This document shows positions 4,272 through 16,737 of a stretch of DNA of 64,000 nt, in pieces; the first letter of the stretch is position 1; each line of letters starts with the position of its first letter. Position numbers and translations under genes: made by a program. Under the pieces are notes generated by a model. The model was not told the origin of the DNA. It saw only the letters and a program-made list of their open reading frames with translations, and made no database searches. The DNA is from Flavipsychrobacter stenotrophus (GTDB taxonomy: Bacteria; Bacteroidota; Bacteroidia; Chitinophagales; Chitinophagaceae). Where the stretch lies: positions 124,001 through 188,000 of the forward strand of contig NZ_PPSL01000005.1 in assembly GCF_002954265.1 (NCBI RefSeq), in the 5' to 3' direction.

Positions 4272-4766
4272 ATGCCACGTAATATAGTATTGCTCCTTTT
4301 GTTGTGTTGTGTAATGGGCGGCTGCCTGCCATCGCCGTATTACCAGAAACAGGAATCAATTCCACAGAACCAATGGGCCTATAATTTCAATCCTACCTTC
4401 AAATTCGACATTACCGACAGTAGCGCTCACTACCGTCCTTACTTTATCATACAGCATACACAGGCCTATCCTTACAGCAACTTGTGGATGTGGATGTACA
4501 TTAAAACACCGGGGGCACTCACAATTAAAAAAGAGCGTGTGAACATAGTGCTGGCAGATGCTACCGGCAAATGGAAAGGCCGTGGCATGGGCGCCATTTA
4601 TGAAGAACGCGTAATGCTGGACCTTGGCGATTCAGTAAAGTTCGACCGCAATGGTACTTACGAGATCATGCTGGAGCAGAACATGCGTATCAACCCATTG
4701 CCTGAAGTACTCCATGTAGGTTTCAGACTGGAAATGGTAGGATCAGGTTATTTCAAAAAGATATAA
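4272..4766 (+). CDS. gldH: Gliding motility lipoprotein GldH
   Basis: A 164-residue lipoprotein with an N-terminal hydrophobic stretch and a lipobox ending at C18 (VMGGC). The mature part carries the family's YPYSNLWMWMYIKTPG segment and the ATGKWKGRGMG motif, both typical of GldH, a component required for gliding and T9SS-linked motility in Bacteroidota. A TACTTTTG -7-type box lies at 4242-4249, 23 bp before the ATG. It stands alone between the divergent LytS-type kinase and a second histidine kinase. The presence of T9SS sorting domains elsewhere in the window fits this call. Confidence 0.88.
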   Translation: MPRNIVLLLLLCCVMGGCLPSPYYQKQESIPQNQWAYNFNPTFKFDITDSSAHYRPYFIIQHTQAYPYSNLWMWMYIKTPGALTIKKERVNIVLADATGKWKGRGMGAIYEERVMLDLGDSVKFDRNGTYEIMLEQNMRINPLPEVLHVGFRLEMVGSGYFKKI

Positions 4767-7500: not shown

Positions 7501-7541
7501 TAAGACAGCAGTCTGTTGCACCCAACCGTCAGTAGAGACGC

Positions 7542-7571
7542 AAGATTTTGGTAACTATCGCTAACTTGGGA
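7542..7571 (+). repeat. Left end of IS1595-family element: 8-bp target duplication plus left inverted repeat
   Basis: AAGATTTT (7542-7549) is the left copy of the target-site duplication. The 22-bp inverted repeat starting GGTAACTATCGC (7550-7571) is the exact reverse complement of 10304-10325. An 8-bp duplication is the known signature of the IS1595 family. Confidence 0.92.
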
Positions 7572-7580
7572 CAAATAAAT

Positions 7581-7611
7581 TTTGTAATGTGAAAATATCG
7601 CTTTATCTTTG
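7581..7611 (+). promoter_or_regulatory. Promoter of the IS1595 transposase
   Basis: TTTG (7581-7584), exactly 19 nt, then TATCTTTG (7604-7611): a full match to the Bacteroidota -33/-7 consensus. It lies 10 bp inside the left inverted repeat and 22 bp before the ATG, so the element carries its own promoter. Confidence 0.88.
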
Positions 7612-7632
7612 TCCCATCAAAGCGATAATATT

Positions 7633-8571
7633 ATGTTTGCACAATTCAAAACACTACCACAATTATTTGACTTCTTTAAGGATGAAGCTACTTGTATGGC
7701 TTACTGGGAGCAGGTTAGGTGGAATGGCAATCCTACATGCCCACACTGTCAGGCCGAAAATCCATATAAGACTAACAGGGGTTACAAATGCCGCAATGTA
7801 GAGTGTCAAAAGAAATTCAGCCTTATTACTGGATCTATATTTGAGAATACCAAAATGCCATTACGTACATGGTTTGGTGCTATGTACCTATGTGCTAACC
7901 ATAAGAAAGGAATTAGTTCATTGCAACTTAGCAGGGACTTAGGAATACACCAGAAAAGCGCATGGTTCTTATTGCACCGCATACGTGAAACGTTTAAGGA
8001 AATAGACCCTGAAACGTTGGGCGGCTCTGGTGTTATGGTTGAAACAGATACTACCATTGTGGGTGGCAAGGTGAAAAATATGTCAAATAAGAAGCGTAAA
8101 GCGATCTTAGAGGATAAGAGCAAGCGCAACGATAATAAGACCAACGTTTCAGCATATATAGAGCGTGGAGGTAAGATAAGGTTCGATGTTGTTGATGCAA
8201 GCGAGAATGAGCCAGATTTACTTCGTAAGCACGTAGATACTGAATCAGTGTTAATGACCGATACCGCTAACACTTATGTAAAGGTTGGTAAGGAGTTTGC
8301 ACATCATGGCAGTGTTGACCATAGCAAGAGTGAATATTGCAGAGATAGCGTTTACCATACTAACACAATAGAGGGCGCATTTAGCCACTTTGACCGCATG
8401 GTGATAGGTGTGTACCACAACATCAGCCGTAAGCACATGCAAGCCTATTGCAACGAAAGCGCATACAGGTATAACACACGTAAAGCAGAGCAAACAAACA
8501 GGTTTGAAAATACAGTAGCTAAGGCTGCGGGTGTGAGGCTGAAATATGTAGCATTAACTGGTAAGGCTTAA
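7633..8571 (+). CDS. IS1595-family (ISXO2-like) transposase
   Basis: A 312-residue DDE-type transposase. The N-terminal zinc ribbon has C36/C39 (CPHC) and C53/C58. The catalytic domain shows acidic positions in VETDTTIVGG and MTDTANTY and a glutamate in TNTIEGAFSHFDR, the expected ISXO2-like order. Length is normal and there is no frameshift, so it appears intact. The ATG at 7633 is chosen because the TTG at 7609 lies within the -7 box. A terminator overlaps its stop codon, separating it from the passenger genes. Confidence 0.93.
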   Translation: MFAQFKTLPQLFDFFKDEATCMAYWEQVRWNGNPTCPHCQAENPYKTNRGYKCRNVECQKKFSLITGSIFENTKMPLRTWFGAMYLCANHKKGISSLQLSRDLGIHQKSAWFLLHRIRETFKEIDPETLGGSGVMVETDTTIVGGKVKNMSNKKRKAILEDKSKRNDNKTNVSAYIERGGKIRFDVVDASENEPDLLRKHVDTESVLMTDTANTYVKVGKEFAHHGSVDHSKSEYCRDSVYHTNTIEGAFSHFDRMVIGVYHNISRKHMQAYCNESAYRYNTRKAEQTNRFENTVAKAAGVRLKYVALTGKA

Positions 8572-8590
8572 TTGCCTTACCTTTGTTTTT
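8560..8590 (+). terminator. Terminator overlapping the transposase stop codon
   Basis: GGTAAGGC (8560-8567) and GCCTTACC (8574-8581) form a perfect 8-bp stem with a 6-nt loop containing the TAA, followed by TTTGTTTTT. Confidence 0.8.
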
Positions 8591-8638
8591 AAGAATGGAG
8601 TGAAAAGACGGGAATCAATTCACGAACCCAATGTAACT

Positions 8639-8669
8639 TTTGTCTGGCGACATAGCAAAGATAACTATG
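8639..8669 (+). promoter_or_regulatory. Putative promoter inside IS1595 passenger region
   Basis: TTTG (8639-8642), 19 nt, then TAACTATG (8662-8669), one mismatch to TAnnTTTG. It reads toward the short secreted ORF at 8694 and away from the transposase. Confidence 0.55.
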
Positions 8670-8693
8670 TTTTTAACCGATAAAAGTTTTTTT

Positions 8694-8924
8694 ATGTTTA
8701 AAAGTTTAATTTTAATTTTGGTCTTTAGTTCTAATGTTTATGGGCAGATAACTAAAGGCGACATAGATAAAGTAAATAGGAATATAGATAAAATGTCCAA
8801 GCATCTTGTAACTAATAATCTACCTCAACACAATTGGGTAAGAAAAGTAAAAATATGTTCTTCGGTTAAATTACCTATTATTTTAGTGCATCAATTACGT
8901 GATTCAGTGAAATACACCCACTGA
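8694..8924 (+). CDS. Short putative secreted protein, IS1595 passenger
   Basis: A 76-codon ORF starting MFKSLILILVFSSNVYGQ, a good signal peptide, followed by a polar Lys/Asp-rich segment and no recognised domain. A near-consensus promoter lies just upstream. The last 47 bp overlap the 3' end of the protease gene on the other strand, and the tail (VKLPIILVHQLRDSV) looks like accidental translation of that antisense region. It may therefore be a truncated remnant of a longer secreted gene rather than a functional one. Earlier in-frame starts (TTG 8640, ATG 8667) overlap the promoter. Confidence 0.4.
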   Translation: MFKSLILILVFSSNVYGQITKGDIDKVNRNIDKMSKHLVTNNLPQHNWVRKVKICSSVKLPIILVHQLRDSVKYTH

Positions 8925-9741
8925 TACCATTTGATGTAGTCTTGAATAATTCGGTGAACCCTGCAAATGTAATATTCGGGTCAACTCCCATTATTTTTAA
9001 TCCTGCTGCCCCTTTAAATTTACTTGTTAATTCATCCGCAATACCTGCGATAGGGTTAATAATAAAGTCTGCAATACCAATAACTTCATCTTTATCGGGG
9101 GTATCCCCTATTTTTATAATTGCCCCTCCTGAATTTCCTGGGTTCATTGTAACATCTAAAAGAGATTCGTGTCGGGGCATGGTCACTACTTTACCATCAC
9201 TTATTGCAATTGCATTATTCTCGTTTATGTACTTTGTAGAGATTATGCCTTTTGATACAAATTGCTGTTGTATTGCTAACGGATATCCACATGTATAAAT
9301 ATCGTCACCCTCATTTGCTAGGTCGTAAACACCCATCTTTAAAAATGGGTATTTCTTATTTTTAGGGTTTATTATTGCTAATAAGCAAAAATCATAAGCA
9401 ACGGCAGAAATGTTTAATTTGCTATCAAAAAAAGTAGTTGGGATAGCTACTTCTTCACTATCGCCTTTTGGATAAACGATGTATATTTTTTTAAATGACC
9501 GCCTATCTCCAATTTGCACTATTGATGGTTCAATAACATGCCAACATGTGAGCAAAGCCCCGCTTTCATTGACAAAAAATGCAGTCCCTATCGAGCCACT
9601 ACCTTCTATTACAACTCTAACCGTGCAAGATTTTATTCTTTTTACCCTTTCTTGCCCCAACGATTGTGCATCAGTTTCTTTTGTGCAAGTAAAAATAATA
9701 GCGAAAATCATTAAATATTTGAGCATACGCCAAACGTACAT
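8878..9741 (-). CDS. Secreted trypsin-like serine protease, IS1595 passenger
   Basis: A 287-residue protein with an N-terminal signal sequence (cleavage near TDAQ, residue 26) and a chymotrypsin/Trypsin_2-type domain. The catalytic triad is readable: H68 in TCWHVI, D117 in AYDFCLLAI and S204 in MNPGNSGGAI. A glycine-containing GTAFFVNESG strand precedes the His, as in HtrA-like proteases, but there is no PDZ domain. An alternative start is the second Met (9726), which gives a cleaner signal peptide. It is carried inside an IS1595 element, reading against the transposase, and is divergent from a small basic ORF 39 bp away. Substrate unknown; whether it helps the host or the element cannot be told. 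Confidence 0.82.
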   Translation of the reverse strand: MYVWRMLKYLMIFAIIFTCTKETDAQSLGQERVKRIKSCTVRVVIEGSGSIGTAFFVNESGALLTCWHVIEPSIVQIGDRRSFKKIYIVYPKGDSEEVAIPTTFFDSKLNISAVAYDFCLLAIINPKNKKYPFLKMGVYDLANEGDDIYTCGYPLAIQQQFVSKGIISTKYINENNAIAISDGKVVTMPRHESLLDVTMNPGNSGGAIIKIGDTPDKDEVIGIADFIINPIAGIADELTSKFKGAAGLKIMGVDPNITFAGFTELFKTTSNGISGCISLNHVIDALK

Positions 9742-9780
9742 AAAAGAGACAACAAAAAATAACTTTCGTAACTTTACTCT

Positions 9781-9945
9781 ATGGCAAAAGAAAAGAAAGA
9801 ACCAAAGCCAACCCCGAAACAGTATGCCGAGAAGGTGTGCTTAAACGTGGATTTTGAGCAGGCCATGAAGTTGCTTGCAGTTCACGCAAACACAATGGGG
9901 ACAAAGAAGATAACCTACAATAATAGAAATAGCCCGCCAATATAG
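9781..9945 (+). CDS. Small basic protein (54 aa), IS1595 passenger, function unknown
   Basis: The ORF starts MAKEKKEPKPTPKQYAEK and continues through a short amphipathic helix (FEQAMKLLAVHA) to a polar tail. It has no signal peptide. A TAACTTTC string (9758-9765) resembles a -7 box just upstream, and a terminator hairpin overlaps the stop codon, both consistent with a real short gene. I do not recognise the family. It is divergent from the protease gene, so the two may share a control region. Confidence 0.55.
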   Translation: MAKEKKEPKPTPKQYAEKVCLNVDFEQAMKLLAVHANTMGTKKITYNNRNSPPI

Positions 9946-9957
9946 TGGGCTATTTTA
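9928..9957 (+). terminator. Terminator after the small basic ORF
   Basis: AATAGCCC (9928-9935) pairs with GGGCTATT (9947-9954) around an 11-nt loop that contains the TAG stop, followed by a T-rich run. Confidence 0.7.
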
Positions 9958-9989
9958 TTTACATTTATGTTGCTAAACTAAAATGTAAT

Positions 9990-10154
9990 ATGGAAGAAAT
10001 TAAAGAATGCTTTATAGCATCTGCAACAACGATACCCGAACTAAACAAAATTATCAACGAATCGATCAATGATGGATATAGACTCAGGGGCGAAGTATCA
10101 TCAACATATATGCCCAATGTCGGGCTTATTATTATACAAATGATGGTTAGATAA
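9990..10154 (+). CDS. DUF1737-like small protein, IS1595 passenger
   Basis: A 54-residue protein. Its layout follows the DUF1737 fold: a first strand (CFIASATTIPEL), a helix (NKIINESINDG), then YRLRGEVSS and a closing strand IIIQMMVR, like the family's 'eGyxplGgvs...QaMvr' ending. The function of the family is unknown. The ATG at 9990 is preferred over an upstream GTG that would start in the terminator of the previous ORF. It is the last gene before the right end of the element. Confidence 0.6.
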   Translation: MEEIKECFIASATTIPELNKIINESINDGYRLRGEVSSTYMPNVGLIIIQMMVR

Positions 10155-10303
10155 GTGCAATTTCAATTATTGCTTTACTTTAATTGGCAACCCTGTTATT
10201 GGGTGCATAACATTTATTTTCTTCTTTTTCATAAACACTTTGATTTTAAAAGTACAAAGTTATGGAAAGTACTTTACATTTTATTCATTATATATTTTTA
10301 TAC
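10155..10303. other. Non-coding right arm of the IS1595 element
   Basis: AT-rich DNA with no convincing ORF. It contains a 7-bp inverted repeat AAAGTAC (10249-10255) / GTACTTT (10268-10274), which may be a sub-terminal site, then runs into the right inverted repeat. Confidence 0.5.
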
Positions 10304-10333
10304 TCCCAAGTTAGCGATAGTTACCAAGATTTT
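10304..10333 (-). repeat. Right end of IS1595-family element: right inverted repeat plus 8-bp target duplication
   Basis: Bases 10304-10325 are the exact reverse complement of 7550-7571. AAGATTTT at 10326-10333 repeats the left target duplication. It is followed by GCGTCTC, the second half of the palindromic repeat that was split. Confidence 0.92.
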
Positions 10334-10403
10334 GCGTCTCCAAATAACACGAGCCATCTAGATGAATTCTGCACCGTTTGCACAAAACTGACGAAACAAG
10401 CAC

Positions 10404-12167: not shown

Positions 12168-12236
12168 TCAAACAAAATGCCCCCTCATACAATAAAAGTT
12201 AAGATTAGCTGTTATAACTATTCCAAACTTATTAGT

Positions 12237-14630
12237 ATGAAAAGATGGTTCAGTACCTGCCTGGTCATTATTTTATTACTCGGTACAACCTCCCTGTTTG
12301 CCCAAAATTACATTGCTACTCTCGCTGGTAATGGCTTGCAATCCTATTCGGGCGATGGCGGGCCGGCAACTAATGCACAACTGAGCGGCGCTTTAGCCGT
12401 CAGGGGCGATGCGGTAGGGAATATCTATATCGTAGATGGGTCGAACTACCGGCTTAGGAAAGTGGACGCATCCACAGGAATAATTACCACCATAGCGGGC
12501 AACGGGGTGCAGGGTTCCTCCGGCGACGGCGGACCTGCTGTGAATGCTGCAATTACGGGAGGCGCTATTTGCATAGACCACTCCGGAAATATCTATATCA
12601 CCGACAGTAACCGAATCAGAAAGATTGATGCAACCACAGGCCTTATCAATACTTTTGCAGGAACAGGAATATCCGGCTATAGTGGAGATGGAGGTGCGGC
12701 CATTTCGGCCGCGTTCAATAATCTCTGCGGTTTGTTTGCAGACACTGCCGGCAATATATATATCTGCGATGGCGGCAATAATGCAGTTCGTAAAATAGAC
12801 CATCTCTCAAATATCATAACAACTGTTGCAGGTAATTCTATAGCCAGTTTCTCAGGCGACGGAGGCCCTGCTATATCGGCTGCACTTAATGGCCCCGTAG
12901 CAGTATGTCTCGACAACGCAGGCAACATGTATATCGCCGACAACAGCAATCGCAGGGTACGCAAGGTGCCTGCAGCTACAGTTAAGATATCCACCTTTGC
13001 AGGAACAGGAGGCTATGGCGTAGGAGCCGGAGATGGCGGCCCCGCTGTCAATGCTGTAATACCCAGCGTATTCGATATATGGGCCGATGGTGCTGGCGCT
13101 GTTTTCATTGCAGACTATGTACATACTATCCGGAAAATACAAGGTGGAATCATCAACACAATTGCAGGCAATGCCGGGCAGGGTTACAATGGCGATAGTA
13201 TTGCCGCTGTCAGCGCGCAATTGCATTATCCCGGTTCTGTATACGCCGATGTGGCCGGCAACATTTTCATAGGCGATAATTGGAATCACCGTATCAGAAA
13301 GATAAGCACCTGGGGCACCATCTCAACCTTTGCAGGTGGAGCGCCCATGTCGTTTGCTGGCGATGGTGGGCCATGTGCCGATGCCGAGCTTAATCTGCCA
13401 ATGAATATCGCAGTAAGCCCGGCCAACGACATCTATGTTTCCGACTACAGCAACAATAGGATAAGGAAAATTAATGCTGCCGGCACTATTACTACAATTG
13501 CAGGCGGTGGTTCAGCTGTTTCCGGCTTCGGTGGCGATGGTGGAGCGGCAACTAATGCTACTCTATACCACCCAAGAGGCATAAGTTTAGATGCCGCAGG
13601 TAATATCTATTTCGCTGATAGCCGCAATTTCCGCGTAAGAAAAATAGATGCAGCAACAGGCACTATCAGCACCGTGGCAGGCAATGGAAGTTCTATGATA
13701 TCAGGTGATGGCCTTCCCGCAACTGATGCAGCTATCTGGATGCCTTCAGCAGTATGTGTGGATGAAACGGGCAATTTGTATATAGCAGCAGGGAACACAG
13801 TAAGAGCTATATCTGCGGCCACTAGTATAATTTCTACAATTGCGGGTACTGGCGGCATAGGATATTCCGGAGATGGCGGACCTCCTGCATTGGCCACATT
13901 CGGAGAGATAGCCGGTATGTGCAGAGATGGCAATGGAGATTTGTACATCTGCGATTCAAGGTTCAATGTGGTAAGAAAAATTTCCTTCGCTACCGGAACA
14001 ATAAACACCGTTGCTGGTAATGGATATGTATTGACCACAATAGAAATGGGCAACTATTTTTATTCCGGAGGTTACTCAGGCGACGGCGGACCTGCAACCG
14101 ATGCTAAATTGAATGTGCCGTGGGGTATTTTTGTAGACCCTGCCGAAACATTGTATATAGCTGATGGTAGCAACAATATGATCAGAACAGTTACTGCCGA
14201 TGGAATTATTCATGCATTTGCCGGCAATACTATTCCGGGTTTCAACGGCGATGGCGGGCTGGCAACTAATGCCCGGCTGAACTGGCCTACAGCTATGTGT
14301 ATGAAGCAAGGCTCGCTGTTGATAGCAGATTGCGGAAATAACAGAATAAGAAAGATAACCAATCCCACAGCAGTGAACAATGTAGAAACAACAATACATT
14401 TTTCAATTGTCCCAAACCCGTCAACAGGTCTGATAACAATAACTACTGATCACAATACCAAATTCAACACCATTGACATCTACAATATTGTCGGACAAAA
14501 AATATTTCATTCAGAAGAAATTACTTCTCCTTTAAAGATGGACATCAGCAATGAACCGACAGGAATATATATAGTCTCCGCGAGTTATGGTGGCTCTTCT
14601 ACTACACAGAAGTTTGTAATTGCGCGATAG
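12237..14630 (+). CDS. NHL-repeat beta-propeller protein with T9SS type A sorting domain
   Basis: About 797 residues: signal peptide (about 1-23, ending SLFAQ), then roughly a dozen NHL-type repeats of ~55 residues. Each repeat pairs an 'IxTxAGxG..GxSGDGGPA..A.L' segment with a 'GNIYIaDxxNxRiRKI' strand. The last ~75 residues (VPNPSTGLITI to KFVIAR) form a Por-secretion C-terminal sorting domain, so the protein should be exported by the type IX system and anchored or released at the surface. Such propellers bind proteins or glycans. A homologous protein lies at 57191. The upstream ATG at 12177 lacks a signal peptide, so 12237 is used. Confidence 0.88.
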   Translation: MKRWFSTCLVIILLLGTTSLFAQNYIATLAGNGLQSYSGDGGPATNAQLSGALAVRGDAVGNIYIVDGSNYRLRKVDASTGIITTIAGNGVQGSSGDGGPAVNAAITGGAICIDHSGNIYITDSNRIRKIDATTGLINTFAGTGISGYSGDGGAAISAAFNNLCGLFADTAGNIYICDGGNNAVRKIDHLSNIITTVAGNSIASFSGDGGPAISAALNGPVAVCLDNAGNMYIADNSNRRVRKVPAATVKISTFAGTGGYGVGAGDGGPAVNAVIPSVFDIWADGAGAVFIADYVHTIRKIQGGIINTIAGNAGQGYNGDSIAAVSAQLHYPGSVYADVAGNIFIGDNWNHRIRKISTWGTISTFAGGAPMSFAGDGGPCADAELNLPMNIAVSPANDIYVSDYSNNRIRKINAAGTITTIAGGGSAVSGFGGDGGAATNATLYHPRGISLDAAGNIYFADSRNFRVRKIDAATGTISTVAGNGSSMISGDGLPATDAAIWMPSAVCVDETGNLYIAAGNTVRAISAATSIISTIAGTGGIGYSGDGGPPALATFGEIAGMCRDGNGDLYICDSRFNVVRKISFATGTINTVAGNGYVLTTIEMGNYFYSGGYSGDGGPATDAKLNVPWGIFVDPAETLYIADGSNNMIRTVTADGIIHAFAGNTIPGFNGDGGLATNARLNWPTAMCMKQGSLLIADCGNNRIRKITNPTAVNNVETTIHFSIVPNPSTGLITITTDHNTKFNTIDIYNIVGQKIFHSEEITSPLKMDISNEPTGIYIVSASYGGSSTTQKFVIAR

Positions 14631-16715: not shown

Positions 16716-16737
16716 GAGACGCAAGATTTTGCGTCTC
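16716..16737. repeat. Palindromic dispersed repeat (unoccupied copy of the IS1595 target)
   Basis: GAGACGCAA pairs with TTGCGTCTC around a 4-nt loop. The same palindrome, with the same internal AAGATTTT, was split by the IS1595 element at 7535-7549/10326-10340. Confidence 0.8.

Follow-up and report, generated by a model that had tools for sequence, protein, structure and literature searches.

The window analysed here, a 64,000-nucleotide (nt) stretch of a Flavipsychrobacter stenotrophus contig (NZ_PPSL01000005.1), contains a complete element of the IS1595 family of insertion sequences (IS) at positions 7550–10325, which is 2,776 bp long and present in one copy in the genome. In our reading, it is probably a passenger-carrying IS1595 transposon whose core consists of the two ends, a DDE transposase and a small peptide matched to that transposase, the remainder of the interior being exchangeable. 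Judged by sequence comparison with related elements, the peptide, a basic micro-protein of 54 amino acids (aa), is part of the element backbone and not of its cargo.

Members of the IS1595 family generate 8-bp target duplications and have terminal inverted repeats starting with GG. The sequence places the element in this family: its ends start with GG and pair at 22 of 22 bases, an 8-bp duplication, AAGATTTT, stands on both sides, and the open transposase frame scores above the cut-offs of Pfam DDE_Tnp_IS1595 (97.1 bits, curated cut-off 27), Pfam Zn_ribbon_IS1595 (33.8 bits, curated cut-off 25.4) and the NCBIfam IS1595 family transposase (165.2 bits, cut-off 75). Residues D139, D210 and E247, which we take to be the catalytic DDE residues, are invariant in a sequence alignment of 14 relatives. 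A search of the 5.4-Mb genome for the 22-bp end, allowing up to three mismatches, returned the two ends in the window and nothing else (reversed-pattern control, 0), so that, at this stringency, an inner end behind the transposase, a second copy and a lone end are all absent. A compound transposon, in which two IS copies bracket the cargo, is excluded because the genome holds two end sites, that is, one pair. Neither is the element a simple IS with only transposition genes between its ends, since 1,757 bp separate the transposase from the right end and include a trypsin-like protease gene; this passenger, unrelated to transposition, makes the element a transporter IS (tIS). The initial annotation of the window had reported perfect 22-bp inverted repeats, an 8-bp duplication, an intact transposase, 1.7 kb of other genes and no inner inverted repeat after the transposase, all of which hold. 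An integrative mobilizable element such as MTnSag1 would have a relaxase or an origin of transfer; no relaxase was seen among the Pfam matches of the element's open reading frames (ORFs), and no search aimed at an origin of transfer was made. Exact copies of the end pattern were absent from viral contigs, and close relatives were absent from plasmids, where 58 of 72,556 records match, all at less than 60% identity (best 42%). We also noticed a 20-bp inverted repeat (80%) inside the element (7556–7575/7608–7627), in which the left end pairs with a partial inverted copy of itself immediately ahead of the transposase start; it is perhaps a site for transposase action on its own promoter.

We surveyed 79 loci with a related transposase, namely the window, sets of 16, 20 and 40, and two fetched via the micro-protein (L197 and L198). 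These are the best transposase matches and not a random sample. Inverted ends together with an exact 8-bp duplication, 8 bp being the length searched for, were found in 46 of the 79 loci, 26 of them with an upstream limit of ~420 bp and 20 more with a limit of 3 kb. Control pairs, in which the right end was complemented and unreversed, never fell below 6 mismatches in 20 in either end search. The accepted elements include weak-ended ones, namely L040 (6/20 mismatches), L167 (7), and L068 and L071 (5), and L078, L144, L146, L160 and L179 were left out. The 46 elements are 1,739–5,443 bp long, contain 815–4,453 bp besides the transposase and start with GG at 43 left and 44 right ends. Ends enclosing only a transposase were not seen in any of the 46. 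Since all of them hold at least 0.8 kb of extra DNA, the window element is no special form, as the initial annotation had taken it to be; by sequence, cargo is the normal state among lineage members with defined ends. Among the 33 loci without defined ends, 15 have a GG-type inverted pair close around the transposase (up to 6 mismatches in 18), none with an 8-bp duplication, 3–8 of the 8 duplication bases differing in each. Less than 2 kb is available on one side of the transposase in 26 of these 33, and their ends may therefore lie off the fetched piece. The window's own genome holds six elements of this kind (that of the window and L059–L063).

Comparison of closely related elements distinguishes the backbone from the cargo. 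The five closest relatives (L033–L037) have transposases 72–80% identical to that of the window, and nucleotide comparison with them leaves only three conserved blocks, given here as the union of the matches, at 7550–8558, 9762–9926 and 10289–10325. All five share the first two blocks partly or wholly, and three of them have a right-end match within the E-value limit. The 54-aa protein is encoded by the middle block, and its gene lies near the right end in L033–L037. The other cargo proteins of the window element have no counterpart (E ≤ 1e-3) in the 25 other elements compared. Interiors differ even between elements with very similar transposases. L059 and L060, both in the window's own genome, encode transposases 97% identical over 306 aa and measure 3,026 and 5,012 bp; they share the transposase region, ~200 bp at the left end and the ends, and their interiors are mostly different, which on the sequence is a change of cargo within one genome. 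L151 and L152 (transposases 92% identical) share the left end and the transposase only, and the interiors of L041, L044 and L046 (87–89%) are different. The protease, having no counterpart in those 25 elements, is therefore cargo given these differing interiors. The protease and the second small ORF thus keep the role of cargo that they had in the initial annotation, and the protein at 9781–9945, also listed there as cargo, moves to the backbone because it is conserved with the transposase.

The linkage of micro-protein and transposase extends beyond the closest relatives. A profile of 20 stand-alone copies (E ≤ 0.01) finds the micro-protein in 36 of the 79 loci, its gene lying on either strand, at distances from the transposase that vary but always stay within 2.8 kb; 20 of these matches were themselves profile rows and 16 were not, one of the latter (L197) having been fetched because of the micro-protein. 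A 6-row profile has matches in 9 of 196 genomes. Three of these are the window element, L033 and L034; a transposase accompanies the match on the fetched piece in L075, L197 and L198, and none was found on the fetched pieces of L194, L195 and L196. In the sequence of L194, a stretch that by eye resembles an element end adjoins the micro-protein gene. Across 298 genomes of the order, a 28-row profile gives 28 matches in 22 genomes; 22 lie within ~3.1 kb of a listed transposase and for a further three (L229, L230 and L231) the fetched piece includes one, which brings the micro-protein near an IS1595-type transposase in 25 of 28 cases. Two of the remaining three are at contig ends, and one (G080, a frame with a stop) stands alone. 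Twelve of the 28 matches were profile rows, and 13 of the 16 that were not lie near a transposase. It was only via its micro-protein that L230 came to be recognised as an element; its ends differ at 1 of 20 positions, the duplication is CAAAAATT, the length is 3,651 bp and the transposase frame is broken.

The ratio of nonsynonymous to synonymous substitution (dN/dS) of the micro-protein gene is 0.06 for L168/L163 and ~0.16 for the two pairs window/L034 and window/L037, in which dS approaches saturation. These ratios, together with the distribution above, indicate at the sequence level that the peptide gene is under purifying selection and stays with the transposase. A structure model from 8 sequences predicts one helix, residues 25–36, over a conserved F-x-x-x-[LMI] motif, and nothing structured elsewhere. 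Database searches with the micro-protein gave one Pfam match, far under the cut-off, and none in NCBIfam, and one micro-protein searched against plasmids had no match. A fusion of transposase and micro-protein was considered and not found among the listed transposase frames; the transposases of L141, L143, L144 and L153 have a different C-terminal extension of 68–76 residues, presumably resembling a NUMOD-type DNA-binding domain.

In part of the lineage, another gene occupies the place of the micro-protein. Profile searches assign the micro-protein to 24 of the 46 elements and a P63C- or KilA-N-type protein to 14; none has both and 8 have neither. The P63C genes of L041, L044 and L046 overlap the stop of the transposase gene. 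The P63C/KilA-N proteins end in a tail of ~16 residues starting with F-[DN], and in these three elements the P63C bodies are 30–38% identical, with tails that are nearly identical. The tail-coding DNA is the sole conserved block between transposase and right end in L041/L044 and L044/L046, and no such block passed in L041/L046 (two of three pairs positive). We chose 17 tails by motif, by hand, leaving out L038 and L178 as weak, and found that tail similarity correlates with transposase identity, with r 0.61 over all 17 tails, 0.59 where the bodies of a pair differ (94 pairs) and 0.62 where they are the same (42 pairs); none of 5,000 permutations reached the observed value in any of the three tests. 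The tail therefore goes with the transposase more than with its own body. In addition, a leave-one-out matrix mixing tails and micro-proteins recognised 29 of the 46 elements at p < 0.005 against shuffles.

The element sits between gpmI and murB, in the centre of a multi-copy palindrome, a feature that the initial annotation had missed. The repaired target would read GAGACGC-AAGATTTT-GCGTCTC, so that on the sequence the duplication is exactly the central 8 bp of the palindrome. The initial annotation was right in calling the element complete and had set its borders at 7535 and 10340; the outer GAGACGC and GCGTCTC arms of 7 bp belong to the target palindrome, and the element proper is therefore confined to 7550–10325. 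Elsewhere in the genome, the palindrome occurs in 31 exact-stem copies and 6 copies with one stem mismatch (reversed control, 1). One intact copy lies in the window (16716–16737), where GTAG stands ahead of GAGACGCAAGATTTTGCGTCTC, and both window copies carry GTAG immediately ahead of the stem. Five Y1-transposase matches were found in the genome, and no palindrome was present on the fetched pieces of ~3.3 kb around them. Nine congeners have a murB match; five of these show gpmI on the same fetched piece, with gaps of about 18, 70, 70, 290 and 530 nt and no insert, and the other four are uninformative. The same passengers at this locus without the transposase were not seen in the informative congeners.

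The same type of palindrome is present on both flanks of L033, L040, L041 and L046, and on the left flank of L043 and L066, the right ends of which were not found on their contigs. In L033, two more palindrome copies (1896–1917 and 4612–4633) lie ~90 bp to either side of the element, placing this insertion within a palindrome cluster. A stem score of at least 8 was reached at 6 of 46 element sites against 29 of 2,760 control positions in the same loci, and GAGACGC-type words at 5 of 46 against 9 of 2,760; the majority of sites are thus not palindromic. Over the 46 sites, the AT fraction per position is 0.70–0.93 inside the duplication and 0.46–0.72 outside. A sister sublineage (L067, L068, L069 and L072) is inserted into a different repeat, GAGTGCGACGCAAC, always in the same register, the duplication being GACGCAAC or GACGCAAG (reverse complement in two). 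Counted over both strands, this repeat matches exactly 94, 597 and 137 times in the three genomes that hold these elements, and it is absent from the window's own genome and from the controls (0 in each). A single target gene at the GACGCAAC sites was considered and rejected, since the sites have different flanking frames and share a motif that is a repeat.

The feature positions are collected in the table below. Protease residues H68, D117 and S204 are in place by inspection; the protein is HtrA-like without a PDZ match, its weak HtrA matches falling far below the cut-off. Homologues with 42–44% identity occur in 3 others of 195 family genomes, and no transposase match was found on the pieces fetched from these. 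The 94-aa ORF that overlaps the 3' end of the protease gene may be a remnant of earlier cargo. Over the survey, we compiled 88 interior proteins of at least 110 aa out of 89 (one L059 ORF was left out). Pfam (E ≤ 1e-4) assigns 9 of them to P63C, 5 to KilA-N, 2 to RhuM, 3 to N6 DNA methylases, 2 to type I restriction N-termini (HSDR_N) and 2 to PIN, with others singly, and PADLOC gives methyltransferases and candidate families among the matches listed (best 25 of 155 families). The majority of the 88 have no family by these matches. Families of the restriction-modification type thus occur in the set (N6_Mtase 3/88, HSDR_N 2/88; the matching ORFs are not listed), and the cargo of L174 (3722–6563) includes two large ORFs of 552 and 306 aa. 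Outside the element, behind the murB region (12177–14630), the window encodes an 817-aa protein of repeated GDGGPA...IYIADxxNxRIRKI units, which we take to be NHL-like.

Table. Features of the IS1595-family element and of its insertion site in the window.
Feature	Position	Strand	Basis
Left arm of target palindrome, GAGACGC, outside the element	7535–7541	.	Sequence
Left copy of the 8-bp duplication, AAGATTTT, palindrome centre	7542–7549	.	Sequence
Left terminal inverted repeat, GGTAACTATCGCTAACTTGGGA	7550–7571	+	Sequence, end search
IS1595-family DDE transposase, 312 aa, zinc ribbon and DDE domain	7633–8571	+	Open frame; Pfam, NCBIfam
94-aa ORF, TTG start, signal-peptide-like stretch, overlaps protease 3' end	8640–8924	+	ORF list; no Pfam family above cut-off
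Cargo: secreted trypsin-like serine protease, 287 aa	8878–9741	-	Trypsin_2, 56.1 against 27.6 bits
Backbone: 54-aa basic micro-protein	9781–9945	+	Conservation, profile searches, dN/dS, model
Cargo: second small ORF, 54 aa	9990–10154	+	DUF1737-like match below cut-off (12.6 against 24 bits, E 0.13)
Right terminal inverted repeat	10304–10325	-	Sequence, end search
Right copy of the 8-bp duplication, AAGATTTT	10326–10333	.	Sequence
Right arm of target palindrome, GCGTCTC, outside the element	10334–10340	.	Sequence

In the mechanism that we propose, the transposase would bind ends of the GGTAAC type, and the peptide would dock on the transposase via its F-x-x-x-[LMI] helix and, once docked, help complex assembly or target capture. 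The element would insert at an AT-rich 8-mer, which in the window's sublineage would often be the centre of a repeated extragenic palindrome, and such an insertion would spare genes. Here the peptide would act as a free basic protein; in sister clades, its part may be played by the similar-looking C-terminal tail of a swappable P63C or KilA-N protein, the DNA-binding body of which could add recognition of the target or of the ends. The protease and the second small ORF would travel as cargo. Under this mechanism, peptide and transposase would be physical partners; the element may be active at present, and its cargo may be of benefit. As a more general and more tentative proposal, which we regard as possible and somewhat short of an even chance, IS1595-type transposons of Bacteroidota would be two-component machines, with a DDE transposase and a matched peptide that is either a free micro-protein or the tail of exchangeable DNA-binding proteins; the peptide would have made the IS a general cargo carrier and would help it reach AT-rich sites, including the centres of extragenic repeats.

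A different explanation is that the element is a plain tIS, in which the 54-aa protein is a very common passenger without a role in transposition, for example a selfish or host-useful one. IS1595 elements with passenger genes are established, as stated in the pertinent parts of PMC3129680, PMC5704250 and PMC8496243, and the eight elements with neither second gene by profile would fit this explanation; however, the 54-aa gene is conserved with the transposase at the nucleotide level while the adjacent cargo is replaced, 25 of the 28 genome-wide matches are near a transposase, and tails on unrelated bodies follow the transposase. We consider it unlikely. Alternatively, the micro-protein is matched to the transposase and works as a brake, that is, an inhibitor or copy-number regulator keeping the element at a single copy, which appears to us less probable again. 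The ends are single-copy in the genome, the evidence for matching (nucleotide conservation and tail correlation) fits a brake equally, and small element-encoded proteins that regulate the transposase are known from other IS families. The presence of the tail on DNA-binding proteins suggests recruitment instead, which is an argument only, as the data fit helper and brake alike. We favour a peptide that helps transposition, with restraint as the second choice. It is also conceivable, and in our estimate very improbable, that the block at 9762–9926 and the tail-coding stretch are conserved for their DNA sequence, for instance as an internal transposase-binding site or enhancer, and not for a peptide. 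Both blocks are short and conserved at the nucleotide level, but the dN/dS values of 0.06 to 0.16 (dS near saturation in the wider pairs) and the occurrence of the gene on either strand at varying distance from the transposase speak against it.

Several observations weigh against the transposase-matched peptide as a common core component. By profile, eight of the 46 elements lack the micro-protein and the P63C/KilA-N protein alike. Each second-gene label needs 2 changes on the transposase tree and the split is largely clade-wise, so that the mutual exclusion of the two second genes is weak evidence. A matrix built from the tails recognised 0 of 28 micro-proteins, and the direct comparison of tails and micro-proteins gave, over 39 related sequences, a weakly positive result for the set (mean z 1.2); 8 of the 39 reached p < 0.05, two of them off the motif, and L142 was the best. 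The micro-protein match G080 has no transposase nearby, and the predicted structure has a mean predicted local distance difference test score (pLDDT) of 67 and a predicted template modelling score (pTM) of 0.28. For the elements themselves, the end mismatches of L040 and L167 fall in the range of the control pairs, and palindromic targets are limited to the few sites counted above, both for GAGACGC-type words and for the stem score.

Should the peptide prove to be a partner in transposition, a common transposon lineage would possess an overlooked second component, which could be mistaken for cargo or missed because of its size. Such a component would go some way to explaining how a single transposase lineage carries unrelated genes (for a protease, restriction-modification and uncharacterised membrane proteins) without forming a compound transposon. 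The comparison also gives a rule for separating backbone from cargo in these elements, and the palindrome insertion provides a setting in which to ask how a DDE transposase picks harmless sites.

The term 'transporter IS' is used for IS copies with passenger genes in the part of PMC3129680 that treats them, and PMC5704250, in the section concerned, names the passenger-carrying IS1595 elements MTnSag1 and tISCpe8; elements of this type are treated in PMC8496243 too, and all three cite Siguier 2009. The window element resembles tISCpe8 and MTnSag1, as outlined in that section of PMC5704250, in its IS1595-type DDE transposase, terminal inverted repeats, target duplication and passenger genes. Relative to that outline, our lineage differs in that all 46 defined elements carry extra DNA, some of them lie in repeated palindromes, and the second gene, a micro-protein or a tailed DNA-binding protein, is shared across elements. 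Repeated extragenic palindromes (REPs) serve as IS targets according to a passage of PMC3733652, which cites Tobes and Pareja 2006, and insertion into a multi-copy intergenic palindrome is common to those IS and to the window element; here, in contrast, the inserted element belongs to a cargo-carrying IS1595 lineage and the duplication is exactly the 8-bp palindrome centre. The GTAG ahead of the stem in both window copies and the multi-copy nature of the family recall GTAG-tagged REPs with RAYT transposases, as defined in PMC3733652, whereas the pieces around the five Y1-transposase matches hold no palindrome. Our searches of the open-access literature on the micro-protein itself, IS1595 with palindromes, P63C with transposase and ISXO2 with KilA-N returned no account of the micro-protein among the papers listed. 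PMC10214660 and PMC7986276 have no bearing on these elements. Passenger-carrying IS1595 elements are thus a known system, to which the conserved 54-aa peptide would be added as a candidate second component.

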